In this document: piece after piece, positions 29,450 through 34,131 of the stretch
How positions within the stretch are numbered: position 1 is the stretch's first letter
Layout: each line of letters starts with the position of its first letter
NCBI RefSeq assembly: GCF_035920445.1
Contig: NZ_CP109162.1
Span: forward strand, 5,952,001-6,016,000
Origin: Nocardia sp. NBC_01730
GTDB lineage: Bacteria; Actinomycetota; Actinomycetes; Mycobacteriales; Mycobacteriaceae
Length of the DNA stretch: 64,000 nt
Reading direction: 5' to 3'
The notes under the pieces: model-generated
Told to the model about the DNA's origin: nothing
Databases searched by the model: none
The model's input: only the letters and a program-made list of their open reading frames with translations
Position numbers and translations under genes: made by a program

Positions 29450-30097
29450 GGTCAACACTCCTCGAGTAGGTGGGCACCAGGTAGTGCCCGAAGCTTGTCG
29501 GTGATACGTGTATTGCGCGAATGAATCGCAGGTCTGGTCATCATCAGCGCGCGTCGGTCCTGGCGCACAGTCGGTCGATCACGACCTAAACGCGGTCAGC
29601 ACAAGACCGCCACCGCACCAAGGGGTGACTGTACGAGGGTACTGATCGGCCCGTGACGGGTCAAACTCGCCCCACCCGACCGGATCAGGCCGCTCGACCA
29701 GGCAGTATCCGGCGCCGAAGAGCATCGGCGTCCTCGCGGTAACCGTGAGTTCGTCTATACCCCTGGTCACAGCTCACTTCGACCACCACCGTACTTAGCC
29801 AGGCGATTGCTAAAGAACCGCAGGTCGTAGCGTTGTGGTCGACACGCGTGTGCGCGTTTCCCTGTTCCCCAAGGTTCTCCACATCTGTGGATAATTGTGT
29901 GGAAAGACCCCCGGAGTGGCATATTCGTAGGGCCGACGGTGCCACGCCGCCGCCTGGACGGGGGACCCGGGCAGTGTCTGAACCGGTTACGGACGTACGC
30001 AGGATCACGGTACCGACCTCGAGAACGGTCGCATCACACCCTCCCCGCGTGCTCCGGCCGTCTGCTCCTATCGACCTACTTCCGGGGAGGAAACTGC
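29450..30097. other. rpmH-dnaA divergent promoter region with DnaA boxes
   Basis: 648 bases with no gene. DnaA boxes cluster at TTCTCCACA (29875-29883, plus) and TGTGGATAA (29886-29894, the minus-strand form of the perfect TTATCCACA), followed by TGTGTGGAAAG. DnaA probably represses its own promoter from these boxes, as in other bacteria. The dnaA leader ends with GGGGAGG at 30084-30090. No core promoter was assigned with confidence. Confidence 0.7.
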
Positions 30098-32041
30098 ATG
30101 GACGACGAGCAGAACGTGTTGGCCACGGTGTGGCCCGAGGTTGTGACCGAGCTGACCACCGGCTCACCGGACGGTGCAATCCCCCCGGTGACCAGAGCAC
30201 AGCAGGCCTGGCTGAAACTGGTCAAGCCGCTGACGGTCGCACAGGGTTTCGCCCTGCTCTCAGTCCCTTCGTCGCTGGCACAAGAGGCCATCGAACGCGA
30301 TCTGCGCGAGCCCATCCTGCGCTCGCTCGCCCGCCGGCTCGGTCCCCAGGTGGAGGGACTCGGTGTCCGGATCGCCGCGCCGACCGCGCCGACCGCCGAC
30401 CGGCAGAGCAGCAATCCTCGGCACGCCAGGATGACGAGCAGACCTGAACGCGCACGCGACACCGGCCGCAGCCCCGCCGGATACCCGAGGTCCGACTTCT
30501 CTGGCCGCGACGAGTACCCAGCACCCCGTTATGCACAGCCCCCGGACTTCGCACCTGCCGCGTCCTACAGCGACGCCTCCGAGTATGCCGTCGCCGAGTA
30601 CGGGCAGGAGTACATGCCGCAGGAGGAGTATCCCCAGCCGGAGTACTCCCATACCGACTACCGGCCCCGTGGCGATTACTCGGCGACAGCCGAGTTGCCC
30701 TCGGTATCGGCCCAGGACCCCGCCCCGCGGCGCGAGCCAGGACTTCCTCCGCGCCGTGAGCAGGCGATCCCGCCCGGGCAGGAGTCGTTGTTCAACCCCG
30801 ACCCTGGTCCCGGCACGGTGCGCGGTCCGGTCCGCGCACCGGTGCGCGAAGCGCCGGAAGCCGACGACACGGGACTGGCGCACAATCCAGTACGTGAGCC
30901 GGTGGGCGACAACCCCCGCGGCGACCGTGACGACGAGCCCGTGGTGAACGTCCGCAATTCCTGGCCGACCTACTTCACCAAGTCACAGGAGACACCGGCA
31001 CCCGCGACCTCCTCGGCCAGTTTGAATGCGAAATACACGTTCGAAACTTTCGTCATCGGTGCGTCCAACCGCTTCGCGCATGCCGCGGCCGTCGCGATCG
31101 CCGAGGCCCCCGCGCGCGCCTACAACCCCCTGTTCGTCTGGGGCGCCTCGGGACTCGGCAAGACACACCTGCTGCACGCGGCAGGCCACTATGCCCAGCG
31201 CCTGTTTCCTGGCATGCGGGTGAAGTACGTCTCGACCGAAGAGTTCACCAACGACTTCATCAACAGCCTGCGTGACGACCGCAAGGTCGCGTTCAAGCGC
31301 CGGTACCGGGAGACCGACATCCTGCTGGTCGACGACATCCAGTTCATCGAGGGGAAGGAAGGTATCCAGGAGGAGTTCTTCCACACCTTCAACACCTTGC
31401 ACAACGCGAACAAACAGATCGTCGTCTCCTCTGACCGTCCGCCCAAGCAGCTTGCCACCCTGGAGGAGCGGCTGCGGACGCGGTTCGAGTGGGGACTGAT
31501 CACCGACGTGCAGCCGCCCGAGCTGGAAACCCGGATCGCCATCCTGCGCAAGAAGGCGCGGATGGACCGGCTCGATGTGCCGCACGACGTGCTGGAGCTG
31601 ATCGCCAGCCGGGTCGAGCGCAACATCCGCGAGCTGGAGGGCGCGCTGATTCGCGTGACCGCGTTCGCCTCGTTGAATGGTCAGCCGCTGGATCTGCCAC
31701 TGGCCGAGGTGGTGCTGCGCGATCTGATGCCCGACACGGCGGCGCTGGAGATCAACGCGGCGACGATCATGGCCGTCACCGCTGAGTACTTCAATACCAC
31801 TCTGGAAGAGCTCACCGGCCCCGGCAAGGCGCGGCCACTGGCTCAGGCCCGGCAGATCGCCATGTACCTGTGCCGTGAGCTGACGGATCTGTCGCTGCCG
31901 AAGATCGGCCAGGCGTTCGGCCGCGACCACACGACCGTGATGTACGCGGAGAAGAAGGTGCGCAAGGAGATGACCGAGCGGCGCCGAGTCTACGACCAGG
32001 TGCAAGAACTCACAGCTCGGATCAAGCAGCGCTCGCGCTGA
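30098..32041 (+). CDS. dnaA: chromosomal replication initiator DnaA
   Basis: A 647-aa initiator. Domain I covers about residues 1-110 (helicase and protein contacts). Domain II (about 110-310) is unusually long and rich in Pro, Tyr, Glu and Arg ([20 protein letters not shown]). Domain III is the AAA+ ATPase with Walker [12 protein letters not shown] near residue 350 and Walker [15 protein letters not shown]. Domain IV has the DNA-binding signature [14 protein letters not shown] near residue 607. ATG 30098 follows GGGGAGG; the frame is open upstream to 29897, but that lies in the promoter. It binds the boxes in the flanking gaps. Confidence 0.98.
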
Positions 32042-32057
32042 GCGCCATACACAGCTG

Positions 32058-32090
32058 AGCACCGCCCCTGACCTGGGGCGGTGCTTTTTT
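32058..32090 (+). terminator. intrinsic terminator of dnaA
   Basis: AGCACCGCCCC (32058-32068) pairs with GGGGCGGTGCT (32075-32085) across a 6-base loop and is followed by a run of T to 32090. This classical terminator protects oriC from dnaA transcription. Confidence 0.92.
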
Positions 32091-32095
32091 GTGGG

Positions 32096-32139
32096 TTGTG
32101 GATTCCTCGAGGAATCCCTGTGGATTCCTCGAGGAATCC
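32096..32139 (+). repeat. oriC palindrome module, copy A
   Basis: A 44-bp module with two GGATTCCTCGAGGAATCC palindromes (32100-32117 and 32122-32139), each preceded by a TGTGGA DnaA half-site. The second palindrome extends to 22 bp (32120-32141). The module recurs at 32271-32314 with one mismatch. Confidence 0.9.
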
Positions 32140-32270
32140 ACTGGTTTGTCCACCGATTCGCTCACAGGCGGGAAGGGCGTCCACAACTGGAAACTCACAG
32201 GTCGAATTCAACAGCTTCCACATCGATGGTTGTCCACACCCGCTGACCAGCATGGTGTCCGAATCGAGCC

Positions 32271-32314
32271 TTGTGGATTCCTCGAGGAATCCCTGTGGAG
32301 TCCTCGAGGAATCC
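32271..32314 (+). repeat. oriC palindrome module, copy B
   Basis: It is 43 of 44 bases identical to copy A, 175 bp downstream, with palindromes at 32275-32292 and 32297-32314 (the latter with one mismatch). A further CTCGAG (32314-32319) and a CTGTCCACG box (32320-32328) follow directly. Confidence 0.9.
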
Positions 32315-32383
32315 TCGAGCTGTCCACGATTCCGTGCACACATGGAACAACCCGGCGAATCTGGTGGAACAACTCGAGGAGCA

Positions 32384-32444
32384 CTCGAGGATGAACGGGG
32401 GATAACCAGAGAGCGTCCACAGACGCCTCGCGTTCATCCTCGAG
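32384..32444. repeat. oriC inverted repeat
   Basis: CTCGAGGATGAACG at 32384-32397 and CGTTCATCCTCGAG at 32431-32444 are exact inverted copies, 33 bases apart, with a DnaA box (32413-32421) in between. Confidence 0.88.
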
Positions 32445-32498
32445 ACACCCCACGGTCATCCCCACCGCACCACGCTCACTGACCAGCGGATTCGGCCG

Positions 32499-32566
32499 CA
32501 GTCCACAGAATCCACAGCACCTATTACTACTTCAGTTCTTCTCATTAGAGATCTCTCTTCAAAACA
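32499..32566 (+). other. DnaA-box/DnaA-trio unwinding element
   Basis: Two tandem boxes, CAGTCCACA (32499-32507) and GAATCCACA (32508-32516), then a 4-base GC spacer, then CTATTACTACTT (32521-32532). On the complementary strand this reads 3'-GAT-AAT-GAT-GAA, three or four DnaA-trios. An AT-rich stretch follows to about 32566. This matches the basal unwinding layout described for B. subtilis. Confidence 0.75.
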
Positions 32567-32955
32567 GGGTGTGTGGAAAGTTGGTCGCACAACGCACCTT
32601 CGGAGCGGCTCCGGTTTTCGGCACGGAGAAGAACGCAGACCAATCTCCACACATCGCTTCGCCCTCGACACCGATCAACCGACAGACCGACGGGAGACGC
32701 CGGATCGATCCAGAGCACGCTGCCGCCCGCCGCCCGACTCGATCCCCCTCTTCCCGGCACACCTGTCAGCGCTCACGGCACAGACAGCCGGAACCACCGG
32801 AGGGTCGGGCTAGGTACACGTCTCACACGCGGGTACGGTTTGATGTCGGTCGCCTGTGCCAGACTTCGTAGACGGCCGATCGGCAGAACCCTTTCGAGAA
32901 CCGACACTGACGAGCCGACAACAGATCACGGAACCGGGAGAGGACAGATCGGGCG

Positions 32956-34131
32956 ATGGAGCTTGCAGGCATGAAGTTTCGGGTCGCCCGAGAGGATTTC
33001 GCCGAGTCCGTCGCCTGGGTGGCGCGTAGCCTCCCGTCCCGTCCTCCCGTCCCGGTGCTCGGTGGTGTGCTGCTGGTCGCGAGCGATGACGGTCTGACCG
33101 TCTCCGGCTTCGACTACGAGGTCTCCGCGCAGATGCGGGTGGCAGCCGAGGTCGCGGGGCCCGGCGAAGTGCTCGTTTCCGGTCGCCTTCTGGCCGACAT
33201 CACCAAGGCGCTGTCCAACAAGCCCGTCGACGTCGCGTTGGACGGCACCCGCGTGCTGATCACCTGTGGCAGCGCGAAGTTCTCCCTGCCCACGATGCCG
33301 GTCGAGGACTATCCCCAGCTTCCCGAAGTGCCGCAGCAGACCGGTGAACTGAGCGTGGATGTCTTCGCCGAGGCCGTCGGCCAAGTCGCCGTCGCCGCGG
33401 GCCGTGACGACACCCTCCCGATGCTCACGGGTATCCGGGTCGAGATCGACGGTCAGCAAGTCGTCCTCGCGGCCACCGACCGGTTCCGCCTCGCCGTCCG
33501 GCACATCGAATGGCGGCCCGCCCGCGCCGATATCGAGACCGCGGTACTCATTCCGGCCAAGACGCTGTCCGAGGCCGCCAAGACCCTCGGAGCGTCCGAC
33601 GCCCCCGTGCAGCTGTCCCTGGGCACCGGAGCGGGATCGGACGGACTGCTCGGCATCGTGAACGCGGGCCGCAGGACGACCACCCGCCTGCTCGACGCGG
33701 AATTCCCCAAGTTCCGCCAGCTGCTCCCGAAGGAACACACTTCGATCGCCACACTCACGGTGGCCGCACTGACCGAAGCCATCAAGCGCGTCGCGCTGGT
33801 TGCCGAGCGTGGCGCCCAGGTACGACTCGAGTTCTCCGCCGAGGGCCTGCTTTTGTCCGCGGGCGGTGACGACGCGGGACGCGCAGAGGAGTGGCTGGAA
33901 GCCGATTTCCGCGGCGAATCGCTGACCATCGCCTTCAACCCCGGCTATCTCATCGACGGGCTCTCCGCGCTGCACGCGGACCGGGTCACCTTCGGCTTCA
34001 CCACGCCGAGCAGGCCCGCGGTACTGCTGCCCGCCTCTGAGGAAGAGCCCGAGGCGCTCGACTCCGGCGCGTTCGCGGCGCTGGCCAGCCCGTACATCTA
34101 TCTGCTGATGCCGGTCCGGCTCCCGGGCTGA
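32956..34131 (+). CDS. dnaN: DNA polymerase III beta subunit (sliding clamp)
   Basis: A 391-aa clamp of three related domains that form the dimeric ring tethering the replicase. Conserved stretches include [67 protein letters not shown] and the C-terminal [12 protein letters not shown], where clamp-binding peptides dock. ATG 32956 follows GGGAGAGGA; the next Met, eight codons in, is an alternative. It lies downstream of oriC, and no gnd gene separates it from recF, unlike in some nocardiae and rhodococci. Confidence 0.97.

Follow-up and report, generated by a model that had tools for sequence, protein, structure and literature searches.

The question raised by the replication origin of Nocardia sp. 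NBC_01730 is what reads the eight copies of the palindrome CTCGAG that are crowded between its dnaA and dnaN genes. The sequence under study is a window of 64,000 nucleotides (NZ_CP109162.1, positions 5,952,001 to 6,016,000 of the forward strand) from a host genome of 8.68 Mb in a single contig; positions given without a genome label are counted from the first letter of this window. The array is probably the target-site cluster of a conserved orphan cytosine-5 (m5C) DNA methyltransferase, the gene of which lies approximately 222 kb from the origin region (oriC) and appears to derive from a restriction system. In the passages of Blow et al. (2016; PMC4752239) on motif clusters, the motifs of orphan methyltransferases were searched for conserved non-coding clusters and four were found, all at putative origins; one of them is the CTCGAG cluster of Nocardia/Nocardiaceae, which stands between dnaA and a DNA polymerase III gene and whose occurrence correlates with that of an orphan methyltransferase. 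The array observation is thus already in print, and what the present analysis adds is the assignment of a gene and of a putative lost restriction partner.

The CTCGAG array between dnaA and dnaN

The dnaA-dnaN gap (32042..32955, 914 bp) is delimited by dnaA (30098..32041, plus strand, with the start set at MDDEQN... in a listed open reading frame that opens earlier at 29897) and by dnaN (32956..34131, plus strand). Its eight CTCGAG sites lie at 32106..32111, 32128..32133, 32281..32286, 32303..32308, 32314..32319, 32373..32378, 32384..32389 and 32439..32444, with successive gaps of 22, 153, 22, 11, 59, 11 and 55 bases, exactly as given in an earlier note made from the sequence alone. The window as a whole holds 35 CTCGAG against 30.9 expected from shuffles, while the gap holds 8 against 0.39 expected from the density in the rest of the window (Poisson P ~1e-8), so that the enrichment is confined to the gap. 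The expectation of approximately 0.1 in 340 bp offered in the earlier note was fair, the recomputed value being 0.145 in 339 bp. The note had also placed the first four sites at the centres of palindromes. Three of these are perfect, namely sites 1 (18 bp, 32100-32117), 2 (22 bp, 32120-32141) and 3 (18 bp), while that of site 4 (32303) is an imperfect 18-bp palindrome with one mismatch. With up to 2 mismatches allowed, the 18-bp palindrome GGATTCCTCGAGGAATCC occurs genome-wide at oriC only, in three exact copies and one with one mismatch, and elsewhere it is approached at four places, each with 3 mismatches. The pattern CTCGAGN{5,16}CTCGAG has 28 forward matches in the genome (13 for a reversed control pattern), of which 4 are in oriC; close pairing as such is not specific to oriC. 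Four CTCGAG hexamers also stand head-to-tail at G000:C1:8300854-8300877, away from oriC.

Relatives were taken in a first draw of 36 same-genus genomes and a family draw of 161 genomes. Among the genus labels used, g1 is Nocardia, g44 includes Rhodococcus tibetensis, g27 a record named Rhodococcus sp. 1168, g37 Antrihabitans, g41 Aldersonia and g52 Skermania, and we infer that g31 and g48 are Rhodococcus-type. The C-terminal 280 residues of DnaA were found in 59 of 60 relatives. In the genus itself, dnaA was matched in 35 of the 36 genomes and at least four CTCGAG lie downstream of it in 34 of these, so that the array, whose absence from close relatives had been named beforehand as a check, is kept. 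The 29 complete same-genus gaps hold 4-12 CTCGAG each, and Nocardia aurea, N. macrotermitis, N. nova and N. ignorata (L031-L033, L035) have 6-8. A side clade of Nocardia (G003, G004, G014, G015, G030, G031; loci L030, L184-L188) has a dnaA-dnaN gap of approximately 1.6 kb or more, with 4-6 CTCGAG in five of its six genomes and 2 in G004, dnaN not being reached in four of the six. Loci in which dnaN was not found received no gap count (L030, L044, L055, L059, L065, L104, L186-L189), of which L030 and L186-L189 were counted later over the sequence available. Seven further same-genus genomes in the family draw have 4-10 CTCGAG in six cases and zero in G153, where the contig ends after 642 bp.

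In an alignment of 32 Nocardia gaps (L006, L020, L025 and L026 being left out for their divergent length, and L035 not included), the hexamers have an identity of 0.93 and their 6-bp flanks one of 0.90, while elsewhere in the array region it is 0.70. None of the 32 gaps departs from CTCGAG at sites 3 and 4; site 6 is exact in 31, site 8 in 30, sites 1 and 2 in 29 each and site 7 in 26, but site 5 in 15 only, sites 5 and 7 each lying 11 bp from the preceding site. Outside the genus, CTCGAG is likewise the top palindromic hexamer at oriC in g27, g31, g36, g41, g44 and g48, as it is in g1 with G153 left out. With the N-terminus of DnaA as tblastn query, any CTCGAG within 350 bp upstream of dnaA was found in 10 of 62 loci. 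A conserved site in this position was considered and rejected, as among the Nocardia loci, many of which hold less than 350 bp there, solely the genome of the window has one (at -80). In g31, five of the eight genomes with a dnaA upstream region (L223, L226, L227, L231, L232) carry three CTCGAG within 350 bp and a sixth (L235) carries one.

It is the exact hexamer that is enriched. The 32 Nocardia gaps contain 257 CTCGAG against 8.8 expected (29-fold), and with ten gaps per genus the counts seen and expected are 94 and 1.8 for g31, 111 and 2.1 for g44 and 86 and 1.6 for g48, an enrichment of 53-fold in these three genera. One-base variants, which fall into nine classes, never exceed 2.9-fold, the top ones being ATCGAG (1.9) and TTCGAG (1.7) in Nocardia, ATCGAG (2.9) in g31, GTCGAG (1.0) in g44 and GTCGAG (2.2) in g48, and several are at zero in g31, g44 and g48. 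For TTCGAA, a palindrome with two changes, the enrichment in g44 is 5.1-fold, from 5 sites. As typical protein-binding sites are degenerate, strong enrichment of the exact hexamer alone is more readily explained by an enzyme whose target is fixed than by a protein that binds variants as well.

The m5C methyltransferase gene

Genes for an enzyme able to modify the hexamer were sought in this genome with the profiles PF07669, PF01555, PF00145 and PF02384. The candidate is an m5C methyltransferase gene outside the window (G000:C1:6206750-6208039, minus strand), a 430-codon frame whose relatives begin at its Met54, giving 377 aa. It scores 142.6 bits with PF00145 (cut-off 22) and 133.3 with TIGR00675 (cut-off 100.65). 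The gene is present in all 36 same-genus genomes, with best matches 76-100% identical, although in pieces in G026 and G006, and homologs occur in Nocardia sp. BMG111209 (P0178, 83%) and BMG51109 (P0207, 81%). One orthologue (P0133) bears the source name 'putative BsuMI modification methylase subunit YdiP'.

Presence of the array tracks presence of this gene. In the family draw oriC was examined in 110 of the 161 genomes, namely all 62 with a strong homolog (E < 1e-140) and 48 of the 99 others, weaker homologs such as that of G069 (49%) being counted among those without. At least four CTCGAG were found in 44 of the 62 strong carriers versus 1 of the 48 others, counts which are uncorrected for relatedness, and the single array genome lacking a strong homolog, G073, is 66%-complete. 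Within genus g43, G138 with the gene has 10 sites, while G080, G105, G121, G152 and G165, in which no match was found, have 0-1. This co-occurrence, together with the orphan methyltransferase correlated with the motif in the account of Blow et al. (2016), favors a methyltransferase over the dimeric, helically phased factor that the earlier note had proposed.

PF01555 matched nothing in this genome. The other profile matches comprise a tandem m5C pair (G000:C1:3847763-3849768) and an HsdM-like gene of type I (L150), both noted in this genome only and provisionally set aside, a BseCI-like N6-adenine (m6A) methyltransferase gene discussed below, and a 1535-aa frame (L112) that is the second match of PF07669. 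A phage or plasmid origin of the m5C methyltransferase was also considered and rejected: among the matches listed, those from phages are 25-26% identical and those from plasmids at most 52.5%, save for a match of 84.5% in a large Nocardia farcinica record that is classed as a plasmid.

The vsr neighbor and a third gene

Directly downstream of the m5C gene in this genome, with a 4-bp overlap, is vsr (116.7 bits with TIGR00632, cut-off 97.85; 58.1 with PF03852, cut-off 27). In 75 of the 76 loci compared, a vsr gene was found close to that of the methyltransferase, G086 being the exception. Most carriers of the methyltransferase that have no array possess a third gene, of approximately 270-290 codons, between these two. 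It occurs in 9 of 10 g27 genomes, in 4 of 4 of g37 and in the single genomes of g47, g49 and g52, all with fewer than four sites except G094 (4), and also in 2 of 2 g41 genomes (4 and 6 sites) and 2 of 8 of g44 (9 sites each). Beside the methyltransferase it was not found in any of 30 Nocardia loci, 6 of g31 or 8 of g48, in 6 of 8 of g44 or in G138, nor in G197, G176, G043 and G056, which have no array. A profile search of the 76 loci agrees with this: it matched in exactly 20, with scores of at least 481 bits, whereas the remaining 56 gave no match even at E <= 1. Tabulated over 74 loci (leaving out L154, a duplicate of the genome of the window, and L167, which has no oriC), an array without the third gene was found in 50, an array with it in 5, the gene without an array in 15 and neither in 4 (Fisher 2e-8, uncorrected for relatedness). 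On the methyltransferase tree, the state of array without third gene requires three changes, at least two of which are forced. Two genomes with both array and third gene (G140 and G211) sit inside the g44 array clade, so that the array may predate the loss, or the gene may have returned. In G043 and G056 of family f9 (L342:3206-4096, L343:3241-4095), an unrelated frame of 285-297 codons sits between methyltransferase and vsr; it has no Pfam or PADLOC match and is perhaps another restriction gene.

The product of the third gene may be a PD-(D/E)XK type II restriction enzyme, judging from the fold predicted by a structure model. It has no family match and no sequence match in PDB, and in UniRef 4 of its 120 listed relatives are named 'Restriction endonuclease'. 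The best structural alignments of the model (pLDDT 83.5) are with nucleases, for the most part restriction enzymes of type II, with scores of 9.4 for BbvCI, 9.2 for NucC, 8.7 for PspGI, 8.1 for both BstEII and NgoMIV, 7.4 for EcoRI and 7.3 for BsoBI, while Foldseek alone gave nothing at E <= 0.001 with it. In the open-access literature, supplementary tables and REBASE not being covered, nothing was found that had already assigned the gene, paired it with Vsr or noted the absence of the third gene, and in the main text of a 2026 review (PMC13076061) the names Nocardia, Rhodococcus and Arthrobacter do not occur.

These observations are consistent with the following scheme. A CTCGAG restriction-modification-Vsr system would probably have lost its restriction gene and the target of the leftover enzyme would have multiplied at oriC, in either order. 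In the present strain the m5C enzyme would methylate CTCGAG, leaving the array hemimethylated after each initiation, and this transient state, sensed by a reader protein or by DnaA, may time the next initiation as Dam and SeqA do in Escherichia coli. It is quite possible, although we would not go so far as to call it probable, that a restriction-modification-Vsr system was in this way turned into a cytosine-methylation clock for the origin, its restriction gene being lost once in Nocardia and independently among the Rhodococcus-type lineages. The array would then be its trace, and the surviving stages would be the system without an array, the system with an array and the orphan with an array. 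If so, the group to which Nocardia and Rhodococcus belong has an origin marked by cytosine methylation, apart from the cases of the Dam and CcrM groups, and the range of gene arrangements in relatives opens to test the general question of how restriction systems give rise to orphan regulatory methyltransferases.

Alternative explanations and known systems

DnaA boxes were scored with the consensus TTGTCCACA. The gap has two such boxes at one mismatch or fewer (TTGTCCACA/TTATCCACA-like nonamers), namely TTGTCCACC (32146..32154, plus strand, one mismatch) and an exact TTGTCCACA (32230..32238, plus strand). None of the array sites matches the nonamer, which agrees with the statement of the earlier note that CTCGAG is no part of a DnaA box. 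In Nocardia 121 of 257 sites (0.47, against 0.23 at random) have a TCCACA/TGTGGA core no more than 8 bp away, the corresponding fractions being 0.37 against 0.28 in g48, 0.12 against 0.18 in g31 and 0.13 against 0.14 in g44. A link between CTCGAG and the box core was rejected as a general rule, since g31 and g44 have no excess, and interference of the array with DnaA is thus possible in Nocardia but not general. Many DnaA-box-like repeats are visible at the side-clade locus L184.

Among the alternatives, the one that survives best keeps the methylated array and gives it another purpose, such as control of the dnaN promoter, segregation of the origin or some function inherited from its time in a restriction-modification system, and not the timing of initiation. 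This is a minority possibility which deserves attention, as the array does lie between dnaA and dnaN, and carriers of the putative restriction gene are mostly without arrays, exceptions existing. The sites, however, stop approximately 510 bp before dnaN, on the dnaA side of a partly conserved A+T-rich stretch 3' of the array (32520..32570) which is a candidate unwinding element, and the best-known precedent, Dam with GATC at the oriC of E. coli, acts on initiation according to the relevant part of a review (PMC13076061).

A dimeric, sequence-specific regulator which binds the palindromes cooperatively and controls initiation, as the earlier note had it, is improbable. Some features do suit such a protein. 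In Nocardia conservation of the flanks is almost that of the hexamers themselves, four sites stand in an extended palindrome that is found only at oriC, and the spacings most often met in 37 Nocardia gaps are 11 bp (45 times) and 22 bp (60 times; 28 distinct gap patterns, L035 and L012 being one genome), so that the local repeat there is real. The proposal that the sites lie for the most part on a single helix face was not borne out, however, phasing in the window at 10.5 bp per turn being at chance level (Rayleigh R 0.33, P ~0.42). A period of 11.0 bp gives an R of 0.54 (P ~0.10), and nominal P values of 0.02 and 0.01 at 10.3 and 11.5 bp are uncorrected for the seven periods tried. Mean phase coherence at 10.5 bp is 0.36 in Nocardia and 0.32 in g31, g44 and g48, close to the 0.30 of random positions, and at 11 bp it is 0.43 in Nocardia. 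In the comparison of dnaA-dnaN gaps that the earlier note had called for, the genera g31, g44 and g48 retain the hexamer with steps of 10, 12, 15, 18 or 32 bp as well as 11 bp. R. tibetensis (L034) has 11 sites and a Rhodococcus metagenome-assembled genome (L036) has 13, their tandem runs being mostly of 12-bp steps, G132 has five 15-bp steps, and spacers vary from unit to unit within the five genomes inspected. What stands of the earlier proposal is the existence of the array, its conservation and its indication of an origin factor other than DnaA; a dimeric, cooperative and phased protein is unsupported, given the enrichment of the exact hexamer only, the variable spacing and the association with the m5C gene.

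It is very unlikely that the sites are instead targets of the BseCI-like m6A methyltransferase (G000:C1:8193405-8195108; L111, L115). This gene is in the same genome, its best PDB relative is M.BseCI (E 3e-103), and the target of the latter, ATCGAT, is also a TCGA-centered hexamer. The gene is present in most same-genus genomes, but no match was found in 7 of the 36, all seven with at least four CTCGAG (G001, G011, G019, G024, G025, G027, G028), or in G122 and G190, which have 10 sites each. In the family draw, good matches are limited to 9 of 11 same-genus genomes and G075, with none in g31, g44 and g48. It was rejected as the writer of CTCGAG for being missing from array-bearing genomes, and is perhaps better matched with the ATCGAT orphan motif, which the cluster passages of Blow et al. 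(2016) also report in Nocardiaceae, naming Nocardia sp. BMG111209 and BMG51109 for it. Finally, neutral tandem expansion, suggested by the nearly identical copies of the 22-bp unit in this strain, is scarcely credible, as the hexamer recurs in other genera with different units and differing spacers and its retention at four or more copies is nearly universal in the genus.

The orphan-methyltransferase explanation may be set beside several known systems. In the Dcm-Vsr pair of E. coli, an m5C methyltransferase gene is adjoined by vsr, as in Nocardia, but its target is CCWGG and it is not known to serve an origin cluster. The BsuM methyltransferase of Bacillus subtilis is an m5C enzyme with the target CTCGAG in the part of one source that describes it (PMC9973331), the target being written mCTCGARB in that of another (PMC7261158). 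The likeness to the Nocardia enzyme is one of predicted target, and of name through the YdiP label, whereas BsuM is an active restriction-modification system and not an origin array. The Arthrobacter TTAA cluster with its orphan m6A methyltransferase, as described in the text on clusters in PMC4752239, is an origin cluster in another actinobacterium, and differs from that of Nocardia in motif and modified base. The Arthrobacter gaps at hand have 10, 4 and 9 (L076-L078), 5 (L082) and 1 (L094) TTAA, an unevenness which suggests that this origin cluster may not be universal in the genus.

Like the Nocardia array, the GATC sites at the oriC of E. coli are dense, short, palindromic methylation targets at an origin, served by an orphan methyltransferase (Dam, as treated in the relevant part of PMC13076061). 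Dam is an m6A enzyme of another family, whereas m5C is predicted in Nocardia, where no SeqA-like reader was identified, none having been sought. With the cluster of Blow et al. (2016), the text of which on this motif gives no gene, modified base, spacing, flanks, Vsr or lost restriction gene, the present array is equal in motif, place, taxon and proposed link to replication.
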